Assembly: GCF_009901525.1 (NCBI RefSeq)
Contig: NZ_CP019288.1
Location: 3,625,501 to 3,689,500, forward strand
DNA length: 64,000 nucleotides
Origin: Kordia antarctica
GTDB lineage: Bacteria > Bacteroidota > Bacteroidia > Flavobacteriales > Flavobacteriaceae
Direction of reading: 5' to 3'
Under the pieces are notes generated by a model, which saw only the letters and a program-made list of their open reading frames with translations, had not been told where the DNA came from and made no database searches. Numbering within the stretch: position 1 is the stretch's first letter; the number at the start of each line of letters is the position of its first letter. Positions 42,600-55,721 of the stretch are shown one piece after another. The position numbers and the translations under genes are program-made.

Positions 42600-42729
42600 C
42601 CAAAATTAGAAAAGTCAAAAACCATAAAATGTTGAATATTTCTCAAAGAAATTGAATTTTAGTTGAGAATTCAGCAAAAAACCTTCTTGAGGAACCGTTG
42701 TGAATGCAAAAATTGTGTTAAAGTTAATT

Positions 42730-42766
42730 ACTATGCTTGCATAGTATAATTCTCGTCATATATTTG
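42730..42766 (+). promoter_or_regulatory. Promoter with operator-like dyad, small RNA copy 1
   Basis: A perfect dyad ACTATGC-TT-GCATAGT (42730-42745) has the -33 TTG (42737-42739) at its centre. After 19 bp comes TATATTTG (42759-42766). A dimeric regulator bound here would cover the -33 box. Confidence 0.8.
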
Positions 42767-42770
42767 CAGT

Positions 42771-42879
42771 GCAAGAGAGAGTGGTTTCCTCTTGCGACTT
42801 TAAGAAGAGAAATTTTCATAATTTAAAGTTTTGGTTGGTTAATAAAAATGAGCTCGATCGCAAGATCGAGTTTTTTTTT
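42771..42879 (+). ncRNA. Candidate small RNA, copy 1
   Basis: About 109 nt from the predicted start to the terminator. Hairpin 1: GCAAGAG (42771-42777) with CTCTTGC (42789-42795), 11-nt loop. Hairpin 2: ACTTTAA (42797-42803) with TTAAAGT (42823-42829). A single-stranded TTTGGTTGGTTAATAAAAA stretch follows, then a terminator CTCGATC-GCAA-GATCGAG with T9. No frame longer than a few codons is present. It may belong to a known Bacteroidetes RNA class such as Flavo-1, which cannot be checked here. It runs toward the 3' end of the lanthipeptide-like gene. Confidence 0.78.
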
Positions 42880-42949
42880 GCTTTTTTTTAAAAATGAAAA
42901 GCCGCCAATATATTGACAGCTTTTCTTATAATTCAATCGTTGTTAGTAA

Positions 42950-43201
42950 TTAAGGTACTTCTGTTATAGTTGGGCAGAATCGAGAATCTCCTGTTTCTCC
43001 TGTGTAACCTGTTGGTTGACAAGCTGGTCCGCAAGTAGCTCCACATGTTGCGGCACACGTATTTGCACACGTAGCAGCTTCTGTAGGGCAACACGAATTA
43101 CCGTGACAGGTATTTGTTCCTCCTCCATTTAATTGATCTTGGGTTAGCTGAGAAATCGTAGCTTTTCTAATTCCCAATTTTTTCATTTTTCGTTTTTTCA
43201 T
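42950..43201 (-). CDS. Lanthipeptide-like RiPP precursor, GG-type leader, Thr-Cys-rich core
   Basis: An 83-aa peptide. The leader KKLGIRKATISQLTQDQLNGGG matches the bacteroidete class I lanthipeptide pattern (basic start, LxLRKxTIxxL, Gly-Gly end). The core of about 54 residues has 11 cysteines, and five of them follow a threonine (ATCANTCAATCGATCG and nearby). Dehydrated Thr with Cys could form thioether rings, or the cysteines could pair as disulfides. The ATG at 43201 is preferred to the upstream TTG. No LanB/LanC, cyclase, or peptidase-ABC transporter gene is in the window, so maturation would have to be supplied from elsewhere. The gene shares a leader motif with the DUF4214 gene. Confidence 0.75.
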   Translation of the reverse strand: MKKRKMKKLGIRKATISQLTQDQLNGGGTNTCHGNSCCPTEAATCANTCAATCGATCGPACQPTGYTGETGDSRFCPTITEVP

Positions 43202-43218
43202 GATGTTATATTTCAAAT

Positions 43219-43256
43219 ACTCCTACTCTGTAAGCTTTTCGGATTCCGCTTTTTAA
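43219..43256 (-). promoter_or_regulatory. Leader motif shared by precursor and DUF4214 genes, copy 1
   Basis: Read on the minus strand, ATCCGAAAAGCTTACAGAG is followed by TAGGAGT about 20 bp before the precursor ATG. The matching sequence at 43967-44002 reads ATCCGAAAATCCTTAATAG, then AGTAGGAAT. Confidence 0.6.
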
Positions 43257-43318
43257 TACTGTTCGTTAATAATTGATGATGATTTACTTTACAGTAAGAT
43301 CAAATGCTGCTAAATTTT

Positions 43319-43945
43319 CTAAAATGTACATTGATTTGCCGCGTTGTTACATTCTGTAGTAATTCCGCTTAATCTTCTTCCGAACTCAGGAGAATTACCA
43401 ATACCATTGGCGACATCAAGAATACCTCTTGTATTTAAAATGTTATTCCAATATATTCCTCCAGGAACATCAGGTTCTCTAAGTAGCAAACCTCTGTAAG
43501 CGATGTAAATTTTCTTATGAATTTGATAACTGGTGATATTATTTCTACTTAAAAAACTTTGGTAACGACTATTCCATCGCTGGCTAGCTTCTGGTGAAGT
43601 AATAAATCCTTTTGCAAGATCATCAAACCCTCTAGTGTTTAAGATATTGATCCAATAGGTTACATCAGAAGCATTCGTTGGACAACGTTCTAAGTATGAC
43701 AAATACGCCAATCTTACAACACAATGTGCATCTATCGTTGGTGGATTGGGAATATTTGGTGGACTAAAATCTGGGTCAAACGGAATTCCTTGAATTTTTT
43801 GACTTTCCGTTAAATCGGTTGTGGAAATAACATCTTCCGTTGCTGTACTTATTTCTTCTGTTTGACAGGAAATAATATACAATGATCCTGCAATCATTAA
43901 AAGTACAAGTGCAAAATTGCGAGATTTTAAAATGAATTTTTTCAT
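43319..43945 (-). CDS. Lipoprotein with two DUF4214 repeats
   Basis: A 208-aa protein whose signal peptide ends in a lipobox (GSLYIISC), so it is probably lipid-anchored. Two DUF4214 modules follow: LSYLERCPTNASDVTYW ... GFITSPEASQRW (about residues 78-125) and AYRGLLLREPDVPGGIYW ... GIGNSPEFGRRL (about 145-195). Each contains the NILNTRG motif. DUF4214 occurs in bacterial surface proteins, often with metal-binding repeats, but its role is unknown. The frame extends 26 codons further upstream, but the ATG before the signal peptide fits best. Confidence 0.8.
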   Translation of the reverse strand: MKKFILKSRNFALVLLMIAGSLYIISCQTEEISTATEDVISTTDLTESQKIQGIPFDPDFSPPNIPNPPTIDAHCVVRLAYLSYLERCPTNASDVTYWINILNTRGFDDLAKGFITSPEASQRWNSRYQSFLSRNNITSYQIHKKIYIAYRGLLLREPDVPGGIYWNNILNTRGILDVANGIGNSPEFGRRLSGITTECNNAANQCTF

Positions 43946-43966
43946 AACTTTATAAATTCTAAAATT

Positions 43967-44051
43967 AATTCCTACTCTATTAAGGATTTTCGGATGCTTC
44001 CTGTTTTGATCAAAACTATTCAAAGGTATGAGGCATTATTTCCCGAAACAA
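43967..44051 (-). promoter_or_regulatory. Promoter and leader of the DUF4214 lipoprotein gene
   Basis: On the minus strand a TTG (44049-44051), 20 bp, and TACCTTTG (44021-44028) form a good promoter. The leader at 43967-44002 repeats the motif found before the precursor gene. Further upstream, 44062-44078 holds 17 nt (TTCAGATTTATAAATTT on the plus strand) that recur exactly at 45084-45100. Confidence 0.65.
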
Positions 44052-44101
44052 CAGAAGCATTTTCAGATTTATAAATTTGAGTAGCTACACTTTACACGCG
44101 C

Positions 44102-44134
44102 AAAAAAAACCATCTATATAAATTATATAGATGG
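44102..44134 (-). terminator. Terminator of the type IX-sorted protein gene
   Basis: On the minus strand CCATCTATAT pairs with ATATAGATGG across 5 nt and is followed by T8. Confidence 0.82.
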
Positions 44135-44158
44135 TCATATTTTAAAGGTGTAGTACAC

Positions 44159-45016
44159 TTATTTTTTCACAATGGTTTTAACGTGTGTATTTTTCCCATG
44201 TTTAATTTTACAGAAATACATTCCTTTTGGCAACTGAGTAATATCTAATCTATATAATTCTGTATTATTTTTTACACTTATCGGCATCAGATTATAAGAA
44301 ATAACTCGGATTCCTTTTCTATTAAACAGCGTAACTTGTAATGGAATCTTCTGTAAAGGAATATTTTCAGTTGAAGCATTAAAACGGTCAATAGTTACAA
44401 ATTCATTACTAGGATTTGGATATGTTGTTATAGAAAAATGATTCCTCGAACCTTGAGAAGAAGGTAAAGTGCCAGCATTTGTAATTAAGTGTACAGGTAA
44501 AGATGGACCATTTGTATGATTACCATGATAGATATAATCTAGTTCATTTTCATATTTTACCAAATCAAATTGTGCCGTGTAGCTTGTCTCTGTAGGCACA
44601 TAATTTGTTGTTATAACATAAGGATAACTACCAAGATGAAGATTATTGACATGGACACGTGTTGAATCTTTTCGTACAGGAGGTATTAATACAGGCACTG
44701 TAATTCCATGATTCGGAACCGTAAACCCATTAACTTCAGAGGTTAATTTATAGTACAATCTAAAATAGCTAATGTTGTCTACACTAGATTGATAGTCAAG
44801 TTTTACCCTAAAACGAACGTTACTATTAGTGTGTACGGTTTGGGTTTCAGAAGCAATAAATTCAAATGATTGTTGTGATCCTTGAGCTCCAAGAGTATCT
44901 TTTACCAAGATGGTAATATCAACGGTATTGTCTCTAGAAAATGGAATGGTTTGCGCACTTGTTGTTCCTAAGAAAAACAAGAATACTGCTGAGAATGTAA
45001 TACATTTTAATTTCAT
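44159..45016 (-). CDS. Type IX-sorted secreted protein of unknown function
   Basis: A 285-aa protein with a signal peptide (ITFSAVFLFFLGTTSAQ), a beta-rich region of about 170 residues without recognised domain, and a C-terminal type IX sorting domain beginning ITTYPNPSNEFVTID and ending PKGMYFCKIKHGKNTH ... TIVKK. It would pass the outer membrane through the PorZ-dependent system. It sits between the TPR/AraC regulator and the DUF4214 lipoprotein. A 17-nt motif upstream (45084-45100) also occurs upstream of the DUF4214 gene. Confidence 0.78.
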   Translation of the reverse strand: MKLKCITFSAVFLFFLGTTSAQTIPFSRDNTVDITILVKDTLGAQGSQQSFEFIASETQTVHTNSNVRFRVKLDYQSSVDNISYFRLYYKLTSEVNGFTVPNHGITVPVLIPPVRKDSTRVHVNNLHLGSYPYVITTNYVPTETSYTAQFDLVKYENELDYIYHGNHTNGPSLPVHLITNAGTLPSSQGSRNHFSITTYPNPSNEFVTIDRFNASTENIPLQKIPLQVTLFNRKGIRVISYNLMPISVKNNTELYRLDITQLPKGMYFCKIKHGKNTHVKTIVKK

Positions 45017-45115
45017 AACAAAGAGTTTTAATTATACTCTAAGTAAAGTATGAATATTTGATTGTTCAGAATAAAAAGGAGTATTCAGATTTATAAATTT
45101 AAACAAAATGATAGG

Positions 45116-46870
45116 CTAATTTTCTATTTTTTTAATATAGTAGGAAGGATTTAAGCCAGTTTTATTCTTAAACTCTTTAATGAAAGTAGTTGCACTTTTA
45201 TATCCGATCTCTTTGGAAACTGCATGAATAGTATACGACCTAAACACAGAATCTTCTTTTAGTTTTACCAAAACGTAGTCAATTCGGAGTTTATTCAAAT
45301 ATTGATTAAAAGATTGTTTTTTTACGTCATTCAATGCTTTAGATAAATAGGTCGTGTTGGTATTGAGTAATTTTGCTGTAGTGTATAAATTACAATCTTG
45401 AGAAAGATAAAAATGAGTGTTTTCTAATTCTTGAAGCTTTTCTAATATTACTTTAGCCTTTTCGTCTTTTATTTTATAATCTTGAGAAACTTTTTGAGAT
45501 GTATCTTTGAGTTGATGATGTGAAATTTTTTCAATGATTGCCAAAAACTTTTGTTCCTTTATTTTAGTTTTTCTGCGATACAACAAAAAAATCGTCAGTA
45601 ATAGAATCAAAATTACAATAGAAATTGTGCTTATAATTCTCTTATCTATCAAACTCTGAGTTTTCTCATTTTCCAATTTTTCATTCCTAATATCATAATC
45701 CTTCAAATCATCGTTGTGTAACAAATCTTTAGCTGCTGACTTTCTATCTCTTTTAAATTTGGTGATTTCTCTTAATTTGCTATAATAAATTACCTGCTTA
45801 TTCTGGTCAGTTTGAATCTTAGAAATATCAATTGCCAATTGATACATTTCTTCAAGTTTATCAGCTAATAAATTATCGCCAATACGTTCAAAATTTTCAT
45901 CCAACAATAAAATAGCTTCTTCATATTTCTTTTGCTGGTAATAACATTTTGCCACATAATAATCAGCAATGCGTAGATTATTCTGCAAACCGCTATAATT
46001 CTGAAGCTTATCTTTTCCTTGTTTCAGAAAGCCTAGCGATGCATGATATTCTTTTTTCTCATAAGAAAGTTTTCCTAAACTAATATAGAAATAACCTTTA
46101 TAAATTTGCAAATCATTTGCTTCAGCCAACTTTATACCTTTATCAAACGTTTCTTGCGCTTTTTGATAAATTCCTAATTCAATTAAACACAATCCTTTTC
46201 CTAAAAGCGAACTCAAATAGGTTTCTTTAAACTGCACAAATGAAGCATCTTTTTTCTCGTCCAAAGTTTTAATAATCAAATCATAACTTTTCAGCGCATC
46301 TTCATACCTATTCAGTTTGATGCGCGTGTTTGCTACATTCGTAAGACATATAATTTCGTAAGATGAATTTTCTATATGTGAAGCTAATTCTTTCGCTGTC
46401 AGATACGATTCAAGTGCATCCTCATAATTTCCTAACACATACCAAGTACTGCCAAGTAAAATATTACTACTTATGGAGTTAATAGTATCTTGTAATTTTT
46501 CTGCAACCTTAACGGATTGATACGCATATTTTAATGCTTGTTTATAATCAGATCTATTATATTCTACATACGCAATTTGAAAGCTAGAAAAATATTGAAT
46601 CTCATAATTTTCCTGTGTTTTGCCTCTTTCTAAAAAATATTTAGAATATTGTAAACCCAATAAAGTGTCTTTTTTCGCGTAAAAAATATCTTGAATCAAT
46701 TCCTCAATCTTTTCTATAGAATCAGATTGCGAAATAAATAACTGCGTTTCTTTAGAAACTAATTCCTCAAGCTTTGTTTTTTCTTCTTGCCCTAAAACAA
46801 AATTGGAATACAGCATAAGTGCGCAACATATAATAAAAGGTAATTTTCGAACCCAAATAATTTGTAGCAT
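45116..46870 (-). CDS. TPR-containing membrane regulator with AraC-type DNA-binding domain
   Basis: A 584-aa protein. After an N-terminal signal or membrane segment (LPFIICCALMLYSNFVLG) there are about 7-8 TPR-like repeats (for example YEDALESYLTAKELA, YEDALKSYDLIIKTL, YHASLGFLKQGKDKL). A transmembrane helix (IISTISIVILILLLTIFLLY) follows, then a C-terminal AraC/XylS helix-turn-helix pair (TAKLLNTNTTYLSKALND; AVSKEIGYKSATTFIKEFKN). The sensor would be periplasmic and the DNA-binding domain cytoplasmic. ATGs at 46942 and 46891 are alternative starts. It is divergent from small RNA copy 2 and a candidate to regulate it. Confidence 0.85.
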   Translation of the reverse strand: MLQIIWVRKLPFIICCALMLYSNFVLGQEEKTKLEELVSKETQLFISQSDSIEKIEELIQDIFYAKKDTLLGLQYSKYFLERGKTQENYEIQYFSSFQIAYVEYNRSDYKQALKYAYQSVKVAEKLQDTINSISSNILLGSTWYVLGNYEDALESYLTAKELASHIENSSYEIICLTNVANTRIKLNRYEDALKSYDLIIKTLDEKKDASFVQFKETYLSSLLGKGLCLIELGIYQKAQETFDKGIKLAEANDLQIYKGYFYISLGKLSYEKKEYHASLGFLKQGKDKLQNYSGLQNNLRIADYYVAKCYYQQKKYEEAILLLDENFERIGDNLLADKLEEMYQLAIDISKIQTDQNKQVIYYSKLREITKFKRDRKSAAKDLLHNDDLKDYDIRNEKLENEKTQSLIDKRIISTISIVILILLLTIFLLYRRKTKIKEQKFLAIIEKISHHQLKDTSQKVSQDYKIKDEKAKVILEKLQELENTHFYLSQDCNLYTTAKLLNTNTTYLSKALNDVKKQSFNQYLNKLRIDYVLVKLKEDSVFRSYTIHAVSKEIGYKSATTFIKEFKNKTGLNPSYYIKKIEN

Positions 46871-47078
46871 GTGAGAAATTCTTAATATCATAATGTAAAT
46901 GTGTAAGATACGTCCTGAGGCTGAATCAGAAATATACAACATATTCTCGAATACAATAATTGACTTCTGTTAATTTATACAGTCAAAACACAGGCTTTTT
47001 GAACAAATAGCTACTAATTAGGTAATTTAAACTATCGTAAAATACGTTGTGAATGCAAAAGTTGTGTTAAAATCAAAT

Positions 47079-47115
47079 ACTATGCTTGCATAGTATAATT
47101 CTAGTCATATATTTG
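47079..47115 (+). promoter_or_regulatory. Promoter with operator-like dyad, small RNA copy 2
   Basis: The dyad ACTATGC-TT-GCATAGT (47079-47094) with -33 TTG (47086-47088), 19 bp, then TATATTTG (47108-47115) is identical in layout to copy 1. Confidence 0.8.
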
Positions 47116-47119
47116 CAGT

Positions 47120-47228
47120 GCAAGAGAGAGTGGTTTCCTCTTGCGACTTTAAGAAGAGAAATTTTCATAATTTAAAGTTTTGGTTGGTTAATAAAAATGA
47201 GCTCGATTGCAAGATCGAGTTTTTTTTT
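47120..47228 (+). ncRNA. Candidate small RNA, copy 2
   Basis: The RNA part is identical to copy 1 except for one base in the terminator stem (CTCGATT-GCAA-GATCGAG), which keeps pairing as T-G. Both hairpins and the TTTGGTTGGTTAAT linker are unchanged. It lies divergent from the TPR/AraC regulator and 90 bp upstream of the DUF3108 gene, with a terminator between. Confidence 0.78.
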
Positions 47229-47318
47229 GCTTTTTTTTGGAATAGTAATTGTAAAGGTTACATAAATTAACGAAAAGTAATACGAATTTTATTATTTTTA
47301 CAAATCATTACATCAAAC

Positions 47319-48095
47319 ATGAAACGTACACTTACTATACTATTCTTGCTCACATGCATCGCATCGCAAGCACAAAAAAAAGAAAGCGCATTCCAATCAG
47401 GCGAATGGTTTAAATTTAGAATTCACTACGGATTCATAAACGCTAGTTATGCTACTTTAGAAATCAAAGACGAATATCTTAACGGAAAAAGTGTATACCA
47501 CGTTGTAGGAAAAGGAAAAACTACAGGATTTGCAAGCTGGTTTTTCAAAGTAGATGACAATTACGAAAGCTATTTTGACAAAGAAACTGGAATGCCATAC
47601 AAATTTGTTCGTAAAATTGACGAAGGTGGACACACAAAAGATGTGGAAATTGACTTTAAACACGAAAAAGAAAAGGCGTTAGTCAACGATAGAAAACACA
47701 ATACAAAAACAGAGTACGACATAGAAAAAGATGTACAAGACATGGTTTCTGCATTCTACTACTTGCGTAATAACTACAATATTGACGATATAAAAGTTGG
47801 TGATGAAATTGTGTTGAATATGTTTTTTGACAAAGAAAACTTCAAATTCAAGCTAAAATACTTAGGCGAAGAAACAATGAGTACAAAATTTGGAAAAGTT
47901 CCTTGTTTAAAATTCAGACCTTATGTACAAAAAGGACGCGTTTTCAAGGAAAATGAAAGTTTAACATTATGGGTTTCTAATGATCAAAACAAAGTTCCAA
48001 TTCGGATCAAAGCAAGTTTAGCTGTAGGTTCATTAAAAGCAGATTTAGAAGCTTTCAAAGGATTAAAACATCCATTCAAAATAGTTGTAGACTAA
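47319..48095 (+). CDS. DUF3108 periplasmic protein
   Basis: A 258-aa protein with a signal peptide (TLTILFLLTCIASQAQ) and the DUF3108 beta-rich fold: FRIHYGFINASYATLEI, GKGKTTGFASWFFKVDDNYESYFD and LWVSNDQNKVPIRIKA. The role is unknown; it is thought to be periplasmic or lipid-binding. The next gene starts 1 bp after its stop, so it is co-transcribed with the second tryptophan dioxygenase-family gene and probably the M23 peptidase. Confidence 0.85.
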   Translation: MKRTLTILFLLTCIASQAQKKESAFQSGEWFKFRIHYGFINASYATLEIKDEYLNGKSVYHVVGKGKTTGFASWFFKVDDNYESYFDKETGMPYKFVRKIDEGGHTKDVEIDFKHEKEKALVNDRKHNTKTEYDIEKDVQDMVSAFYYLRNNYNIDDIKVGDEIVLNMFFDKENFKFKLKYLGEETMSTKFGKVPCLKFRPYVQKGRVFKENESLTLWVSNDQNKVPIRIKASLAVGSLKADLEAFKGLKHPFKIVVD

Positions 48096-55520: not shown

Positions 55521-55600
55521 AAGCTATTTCCTGCTTTCCGCTATATCTTTTTTTGCCTCAAGGCAAAGCAAAAAAAGGATGCCGCTGCAATCAGGGCTAT
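55521..55600. repeat. Flavobacterial intergenic palindrome
   Basis: A core TTTTTTTGC ... GCAAAAAAA hairpin (with GCCTCAAGGC inside) is flanked by TTCCTGCTTTCCGCTATATC and GATGCCGCTGCAATCAGGGC. I recall this as a widespread intergenic element in flavobacterial genomes. No coding content. The rest of 55451-55812 holds terminators only. Confidence 0.6.
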
Positions 55601-55721
55601 TCAATAGAATTGAGTAATTAGATATGAGTATTGAGATTTCTGTTGGTAATTACATCACATCTTAACTCTTTATTCTAAAAGCGTAGCGATCTAAAATCTT
55701 ATATCAACAATGTCATTAAAC

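Follow-up and report, generated by a model that had tools for sequence, protein, structure and literature searches.

Two copies of a conserved structured RNA gene in Kordia antarctica and its predicted pairing with the translation starts of outer-membrane receptor genes

In Enterobacteria, outer-membrane small RNAs (sRNAs) of the MicA/RybB type set one conserved seed against the start regions of many outer-membrane proteins. The Flavobacteriaceae are among the major degraders of polysaccharides in the sea, their diet being decided by their SusC/SusD systems, and, to our knowledge, few sRNAs of Bacteroidota have been characterised outside Bacteroides. Within that genus, and according to the part of the source drawn on here, FopS acts by pairing over the start region of a SusC-like mRNA, for which there is experimental support, its predicted targets are enriched in SusC-like transporters, and the reported targets of a second sRNA, GibS, are a glycoside hydrolase and a hypothetical protein (PMC11697453). 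Here we describe an RNA that invites comparison with these systems. It is encoded twice in the window analysed, a 64,000-nucleotide stretch of Kordia antarctica DNA (contig NZ_CP019288.1, positions 3,625,501 to 3,689,500 of the forward strand), in which an earlier note had proposed twin regulated sRNA genes, here copies A and B.

The gene itself, its structure, its spread and the excess complementarity at its predicted targets are computational observations. Our favoured explanation, to which we assign a probability of about 0.62, is that the gene specifies a trans-acting sRNA of ~109 nt that would repress translation initiation by pairing over the start regions of target mRNAs. The RNA probably lowers translation of those targets, foremost among them the mRNAs of outer-membrane nutrient receptors.

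A structured RNA in two copies and across the family

The two units lie 4349 bp apart where the earlier note had placed them, and most of its description stands. Both contain the dyad ACTATGCTTGCATAGT with a central TTG and a 19-bp spacer (hand-counted from the sequence) to the downstream box, and their 109-nt RNA bodies differ at a single base, C at 42859 and T at 47208, which changes a C-G to a U-G pair and keeps the pairing of the terminator stem. The predicted RNA starts, 42771 and 47120, follow from the position of the flavobacterial housekeeping promoter box, -12 to -5, in the part of PMC9723704 used here. Across the whole 5.5-Mb genome (G000) CTATGCNNGCATAG is restricted to the two units (control 0), and these are its only full copies. 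The description needs amending in two respects. Where two hairpins had been claimed there are three stem-loops (SL1 to SL3), the overlooked SL2 occupying part of the supposed linker; and the conserved core is longer than the 14 nt quoted, at ~29 nt (TTTTCATAATTTAAAGTTTTGGTTGGTTA).

Relative to shuffled sequences the fold of copy B has a z of -3.96, and those of nine relatives range from -3.69 to -6.50. In an alignment of 98 copies (90 distinct rows), which was fitted to the structure, 97.1% of the cells are paired, a value that falls to 63.2% or less when partners are slid, and 18 of the 28 pairs have changed on both sides (349 doubly changed cells, compared with 90 ± 13 in shuffles). This covariation sits in SL1 and SL3. 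The stem of SL2 is nearly invariant and so lacks support of this kind; SL2 rests instead on folding, being seen in the ten sequences folded, one of which lacks the stem-loop in its centroid structure, and on a genus of many species (g152, presumed to be Flavobacterium from its species number only) in which a different stem again presents UCAU in its loop. The core, UUUUCAUAAUUUAAAGUUU(U)GGUUGGUUA, hardly changes among relatives, and neither does the SL1 loop GUGGU.

Could the conserved block be part of a coding gene or a transposon end, the two readings that the earlier note had set against its own? The former is unlikely because the longest ATG/GTG/TTG frame inside each of the 98 copies encodes only 8-34 amino acids, because an ATG occurs within the first 80 nt of only 24 of them, and because the core, nearly invariant as DNA (TTTTCATAATTTAAAGTTT(T)GGTTGGTTA), varies by single-base indels. 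The latter is disfavoured by the constant place of the RNA beside a DUF3108 gene, described below, although no transposon search was made. A third possibility is that the RNA serves a putative protein partner as sponge or scaffold, the protein recognising the invariant core and the GUGGU loop and the start-region match being secondary. SL1 loop and core are indeed almost invariant, beyond what pairing alone seems to need, and the RRM protein RbpB binds FopS RNAs (PMC11697453, in the part used). A pure protein site would, however, leave unexplained why shuffled cores fit SusC starts so much less well than the real one, and we regard this alternative as unlikely.

How widely is the RNA distributed? 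Among 99 genomes compared by BLAST, the K. antarctica genome included, 14 have a match: all 11 Kordia genomes have near-full matches, more than one in 10 of the 11, and three other genera have partial ones. In loci where two Kordia matches were read, a few hundred bases separate the pair, as against 4.35 kb here. A covariance model, R1, matches 211 of 397 Flavobacteriaceae genomes at E ≤ 0.01, with 94 at 62 bits or more (hand count of rows); the weak tail of its matches may reflect chance or RNAs of other kinds. Among named genomes a pattern scan matched at least 120 stretches; records named Kordia carry the same RNA type, and the genera among the matches listed, read from 80 of these stretches, include Maribacter, Arenibacter, Zobellia, Allomuricauda, Cellulophaga, Croceitalea, Robiginitalea, Galbibacter, Capnocytophaga and Sinomicrobium. 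In a sample of the phylum a second model, R2, matches 50 of 395 genomes at E ≤ 1e-4, the scores outside Flavobacteriaceae reaching at most 41.5 bits among the matches listed. Relatives mostly have 1-3 matches per genome; one (G002) has four at a loose threshold.

The RNA also keeps a constant place. Among the matches listed, 109 of 120 loci have a DUF3108 gene, which in 13 of 14 rows begins, on the same strand, 146-317 bp downstream of the core, and a gene that we read from its sequence, not from a Pfam result, as HPPD-like was seen in 53 of the 120. The orthologue in g152 is syntenic: DUF3108 adjoins it in 6 of 6 loci read, the HPPD-like gene is a neighbour too, and the RNA there has a variant seed (e.g., UUUCAUAAUUUAUAGUUUUUUGGUUAGUUAAU). 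On these comparisons the RNA is mostly one orthologous gene across the family that has been multiplied in Kordia. So constant a neighbour raises the question of whether the RNA is a cis-acting leader that attenuates the downstream DUF3108 operon, SL3 being the regulated terminator. We think this improbable. Between copy A and DUF3108 lie 4.4 kb and four opposite-strand open reading frames (ORFs), and in genome G033 there are three unlinked copies, separated by over 400 kb on a single contig; both observations favour action in trans. In addition, SL3 folds as a strong terminator with no competing structure noted, albeit in no systematic search, and the most conserved bases fit the start regions of other genes.

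In Rfam 15 the RNA is without a match at gathering score, permissive searches giving sub-threshold matches only. It does not reach the 42-bit cut-off of Flavo-1 (RF01705), whose sole match in the window lies at 55523-55602 on the minus strand (75.8 bits), and it is named in no paper title found by a literature search that covered few subscription papers and no preprints.

Complementarity of the core to translation starts

The core is antisense to flavobacterial translation starts: the UCAU of the SL2 loop faces AUG while GGUUGGUUA matches AACCAACC ~22 nt upstream. Partial BLAST hits within the K. antarctica genome likewise fall mostly in the linker, several of them antisense to apparent translation starts. 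In a 1.2-Mb sample of this genome 22 of 848 starts bind the 31-nt seed at less than -18 kcal/mol, compared with 2.6 ± 2.3 for shuffled seeds (0/60 shuffles). Two further genomes show signals in the same direction that are weaker: in G420 (0.8 Mb) 74 of 621 starts fall below -14 versus 40.6 ± 11.1 (0/60) and seven below -18 versus 3.1 ± 1.9 (3/60), and in G601 (0.4 Mb) 26 of 349 fall below -14 versus 12.3 ± 5.2 (2/100). Two heptamers that the seed complements are enriched upstream of starts, TAACCAA (20 vs 8.7 ± 2.5) and AACCAAC (15 vs 5.8 ± 2.1). In Kordia, sites that match TAACCAACCAAAAC with up to four mismatches are most frequent at -22 (11 sites), the position that is in register with AUG pairing; the corresponding profile in G420 is flat, its top count of seven, at -21, being in register by hand count.

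Which genes would be targets? SusC-type receptors are the class that recurs. From each of the three genomes we took upstream pieces of 20 TIGR04056 matches. In G420 and G601 these were the best 20 of 44 and the best 20 of 40, respectively, not counting matches in the stretches sampled earlier; in G000 they were 20 of 23, and about half of them fall below the TIGR04056 cut-off and are weaker TonB-receptor relatives. The pieces gave 15, 18 and 19 usable starts in G420, G601 and G000, respectively, eight having been lost, seven too near an edge and one without an ATG. With all rows included, SusC starts fit the seed better than those of non-SusC genes (p = 0.00013 in G000, 0.001 in G420 and 1.3e-6 in G601) and better than those of signal-peptide-like ATGAA genes (p = 0.011, 0.01 and 0.0001, respectively). 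Shuffled cores reach the real SusC mean in 2/150 (G000), 0/150 (G420) and 0/150 (G601) trials, and the difference between SusC and background in 0/150 (G420), 1/150 (G601) and 6/150 (G000). This shuffle test omitted two Kordia and two G420 rows in which the called start is without a signal peptide, and the energies of these four rows had already been seen, one being the best of its set and three poor. The best start in the G601 sample (-24.7, the next being -19.9) belongs to a SusC-like receptor, and six receptor-like genes rank 5, 13, 21, 27, 43 and 85 of 621 in that of G420.

Kordia has a second candidate class. A search of the K. antarctica genome for ACCAAAACTTTAAATTATGAAA with up to three mismatches, a pattern that itself contains ATG, returned 11 sites, two of them the RNA genes and nine of them ORF starts (control 0). 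Six of these nine best antisense sites encode GG-leader precursor peptides of lanthipeptide type. Genome G003 has seven further sites (control 1), comprising two clear precursors, one possible precursor and some sites not at starts, and the one site in G009 is a precursor. The NCBIfam model lant_leader_L1a matches four of seven peptides scanned weakly, one of them above the cut-off. Over 16 precursor-like ORFs (15 in 1.2 Mb plus one in the window) the mean energy is -14.5 versus -11.7 ± 1.0 for shuffled cores, none of 100 of which does as well. We must consider, then, that the RNA is a Kordia-type regulator of such precursors and the SusC signal incidental, the more so as copy A adjoins a precursor ORF (42950-43216). 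That very ORF, however, pairs worst of the 16 (-7.3), the precursor starts are paralogous, and the RNA is equally conserved in non-Kordia genera, where near-perfect sites are rare, all of which makes this a doubtful account. As an observation in its own right, the Kordia genome is rich in GG-leader precursor-like peptides, the 15 in 1.2 Mb having been found by a simple pattern. No Rfam leader was found in the 10 loci searched, nine of which are loci of the best Kordia targets.

Support for the central claim of the earlier note, a real, selected and regulated non-coding RNA in two copies that would be able to pair with mRNAs, comes from conservation throughout the family, from covariation and synteny, from the promoter elements and from the statistical match of the seed to translation starts. 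With a predicted promoter and terminator of its own, a non-coding body and a conserved seed complementary to starts, it has, as judged from sequence, the features expected of a trans-acting, start-region-pairing sRNA. We envisage that it would be transcribed from a housekeeping-type promoter under regulatory DNA elements answering some inducing signal; that the exposed GGUUGGUUA would seed on AACCAACC-like sequence ~22 nt upstream of a target start codon; that the duplex would extend into SL2, the loop UUUUCAU pairing with AUGAAAA; and that the start region would thereby be hidden from ribosomes and translation repressed. The common predicted targets are SusC-type TonB-dependent receptors, for example those with AACTAACC or TTAACCAA leaders, to which Kordia would add lanthipeptide-like precursor mRNAs.

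Several observations weigh against repression by start-region pairing. If UUUUCAU is held fixed and only the rest of the core is shuffled, the genome-wide excess in Kordia is modest (2/100 for the fraction below -15 and 7/100 for the mean). Near-perfect antisense sites outside Kordia are at about control level in 16 genomes, which led us to reject them as general targets and implies that most pairing would be short and interrupted. Signal-peptide genes as a target class were rejected too, for they do not rise above shuffles. Receptor-like genes rank unevenly (1, 56, 68 and 246 of 349 in G601; 246 and 366 of 848 in G000), and the SusC effect relative to background is weakest in Kordia itself (6/150). 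No co-evolution was seen when seeds were exchanged between genera (for G601 SusC starts, -14.98 with their own seed and -15.57 with that of Kordia), and this candidate was rejected, the seeds being interchangeable. Starts were called as the first ATG and the energies omit the cost of opening SL2. Finally, SusC starts and precursors are each paralogues, so the rows are not independent.

Promoter elements, coordinates and neighbouring genes

Among 93 distinct upstream regions, 92 have a GTTAA[AC] element 53-58 bp upstream of the RNA start (shuffles: mean 1.2, maximum 5), 54 have an additional GTTAA[AC] at -44 to -48, and 81 have TAnnTTTG within the last 25 bp. The dyad core TATGCNTGCATA is found in 31 of the 93 with up to two mismatches (shuffles: mean 2.4, maximum 7), at -38 to -40 in 29 of the 31, and in 26 with at most one (mean 0.14, maximum 1); of these 26, 18 are Kordia copies and eight come from other loci, including two named Galbibacter. 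The earlier note's view of the dyad as an operator thus fits Kordia and some other genera but not the remaining ones and, given 31 of 93 against 92 of 93, we suggest that selection acts on the dyad in part of the family, GTTAA[AC] being the general feature. A Pho-type regulon marked by the GTTAAA repeats was rejected: GTTAAANNNNGTTAAA has eight sites in the K. antarctica genome against 13 in the control, and among six site neighbourhoods read two lie near outer-membrane/TonB-receptor-like ORFs and the others are without a common theme.

Table 1. Features of the two units and the usual downstream neighbour, in window positions. Both RNA bodies belong to the sequence set from which R2 was built, and their R2 scores are to be read with that in mind.
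Feature	Position	Strand	Basis
Copy A GTTAAA element	42717..42722	+	54 bp upstream of predicted RNA start
Copy A operator-like dyad ACTATGCTTGCATAGT over -33 TTG	42730..42745	+	sequence
Copy A -33 TTG	42737..42739	+	sequence
Copy A -7 box TATATTTG (TAnnTTTG)	42759..42766	+	sequence; consensus from PMC9723704 (part)
Copy A small RNA body, predicted start to end of T-run	42771..42879	+	R2 105.4 bits, E 1.9e-25
Copy A SL1	42771..42795	+	two-sided changes in 8/9 pairs among relatives
Copy A SL2, loop region UUUUCAU = antisense of AUGAAAA	42796..42830	+	folds
Copy A nearly invariant antisense core	42813..42841	+	conservation
Copy A predicted seed TTTTGGTTGGTTAAT, single-stranded except first bases	42829..42843	+	folds; complements TAACCAA, AACCAAC
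Copy A SL3 terminator hairpin + T9	42853..42879	+	10/11 pairs changed on both sides
Copy B GTTAAA element	47066..47071	+	upstream-region comparison
Copy B operator-like dyad ACTATGCTTGCATAGT	47079..47094	+	sequence
Copy B -33 TTG	47086..47088	+	sequence
Copy B -7 box TATATTTG	47108..47115	+	sequence
Copy B small RNA body	47120..47228	+	R2 103.3 bits, E 6.5e-25
Copy B SL1	47120..47144	+	fold, covariation
Copy B SL2 with anti-start-codon loop	47145..47179	+	fold
Copy B nearly invariant antisense core	47162..47190	+	conservation
Copy B SL3 terminator + T9	47202..47228	+	fold, covariation
DUF3108 gene, usual downstream neighbour (context only)	47319..48095	+	PF11306, 208.6 bits

Between the twin RNAs (42950-46942) lie, all on the minus strand, genes for a precursor-like peptide and for three proteins, one with DUF4214, one with a type IX secretion tail and one with TPR and an AraC-type helix-turn-helix (HTH); in Kordia jejudonensis relatives of the DUF4214, type IX tail and TPR/AraC-type HTH proteins also adjoin the RNA. 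Two DUF805b RNA motifs (RF02914) on the minus strand, at 43220-43252 and 43969-44003 (45.8 and 44.4 bits), lie near the starts of the lanthipeptide-like precursor ORF and of the DUF4214 gene (43319-44023), respectively.

Elsewhere in the genome two neighbouring sRNA-like units on the minus strand, L077 and L079 (G000:C1:1383883-1383975 and 1384495-1384588), and a similar one from another genus, L478 (G174), end in TTTTGGTTGGTTAGTT plus a terminator, the same seed behind a different promoter, a sigma-54-type box TTTGGCACG or TTGGCACG followed by N4-TTGA or TTGC. In Flavobacterium psychrophilum the envelope stress genes and a single putative RNA, Rfp36, are reported to be served by sigma-54 (PMC9723704, part used). 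GGTTGGTTA or GGTTAGTTA also stands directly before a terminator in L085 (G000:C1:5114058-5114175), L081 (C1:5048718-5048810) and L082 (C1:3589401-3589496), the last two lying in apparent 3' ends of genes. As a frequent module, GGTTGGTTA plus terminator was rejected (0 of 14 sites in 2.4 Mb of samples).

Comparison with described small RNAs

The closest likeness is to FopS (RF04319), whose Rfam consensus has UUUUCAU and then GGUUAAU-AAAA and a terminator, a similar order of parts; FopS pairs near the start codon, as the present RNA would, and SusC-type starts are predicted for both, here in silico only. The RNA nevertheless scores 18.6 bits against a cut-off of 56 (E 1.2 and 0.54). FopS is ~65-70 nt long with a single-stranded 5' part and a terminator hairpin only, as opposed to 109 nt and three stem-loops, and has 12-15 copies per genome where the RNA described here has mostly one syntenic copy, and two in K. 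antarctica. Because score, size, structure and copy number all differ, we do not file it as FopS. Three short terminator-ended units from another family of the same class have a FopS-like layout; one (L468) carries TTTTCATAATTTAGG...TTGGTTAGTAA and the other two (L462 and L463) carry AGGTTAGTTGATAA.

GibS (RF04182) is likewise a Bacteroidota sRNA that pairs with start regions (PMC11697453, part), but the RNA scores only 16.2 bits against its cut-off of 115. Rfp18 of F. psychrophilum, compared by description only, is a conserved structured flavobacterial sRNA with several predicted mRNA targets; it differs in that it reportedly acts, by way of its third stem-loop, on metalloprotease mRNAs, of which two fall in the deletion mutant (PMC9723704, part). 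The same source has flavobacterial ribosomes working without Shine-Dalgarno sequences.

If our favoured explanation is true, a syntenic RNA that is readily recognised, occurs in many genera and has a defined seed and a testable target class would give access to how glycan uptake is controlled post-transcriptionally across much of the Flavobacteriaceae, and offer an example of an antisense RNA built for start regions without Shine-Dalgarno sequences. The resemblance to MicA and RybB lies in their use of one seed against many starts; phylum and translation signals are other, and we claim no homology. More tentatively still, and we hold it less probable than its opposite, one master RNA might act as a post-transcriptional brake on nutrient receptors throughout the Flavobacteriaceae, which have many SusC-type receptors, working as a general antisense to Bacteroidota start regions that combines an anti-AUG hairpin loop with a AACCAACC-binding arm, in which case FopS and the short Bacteroidota look-alikes would be either members or parallel inventions of one phylum-wide logic, fitted to ribosomes that do not use Shine-Dalgarno sequences.

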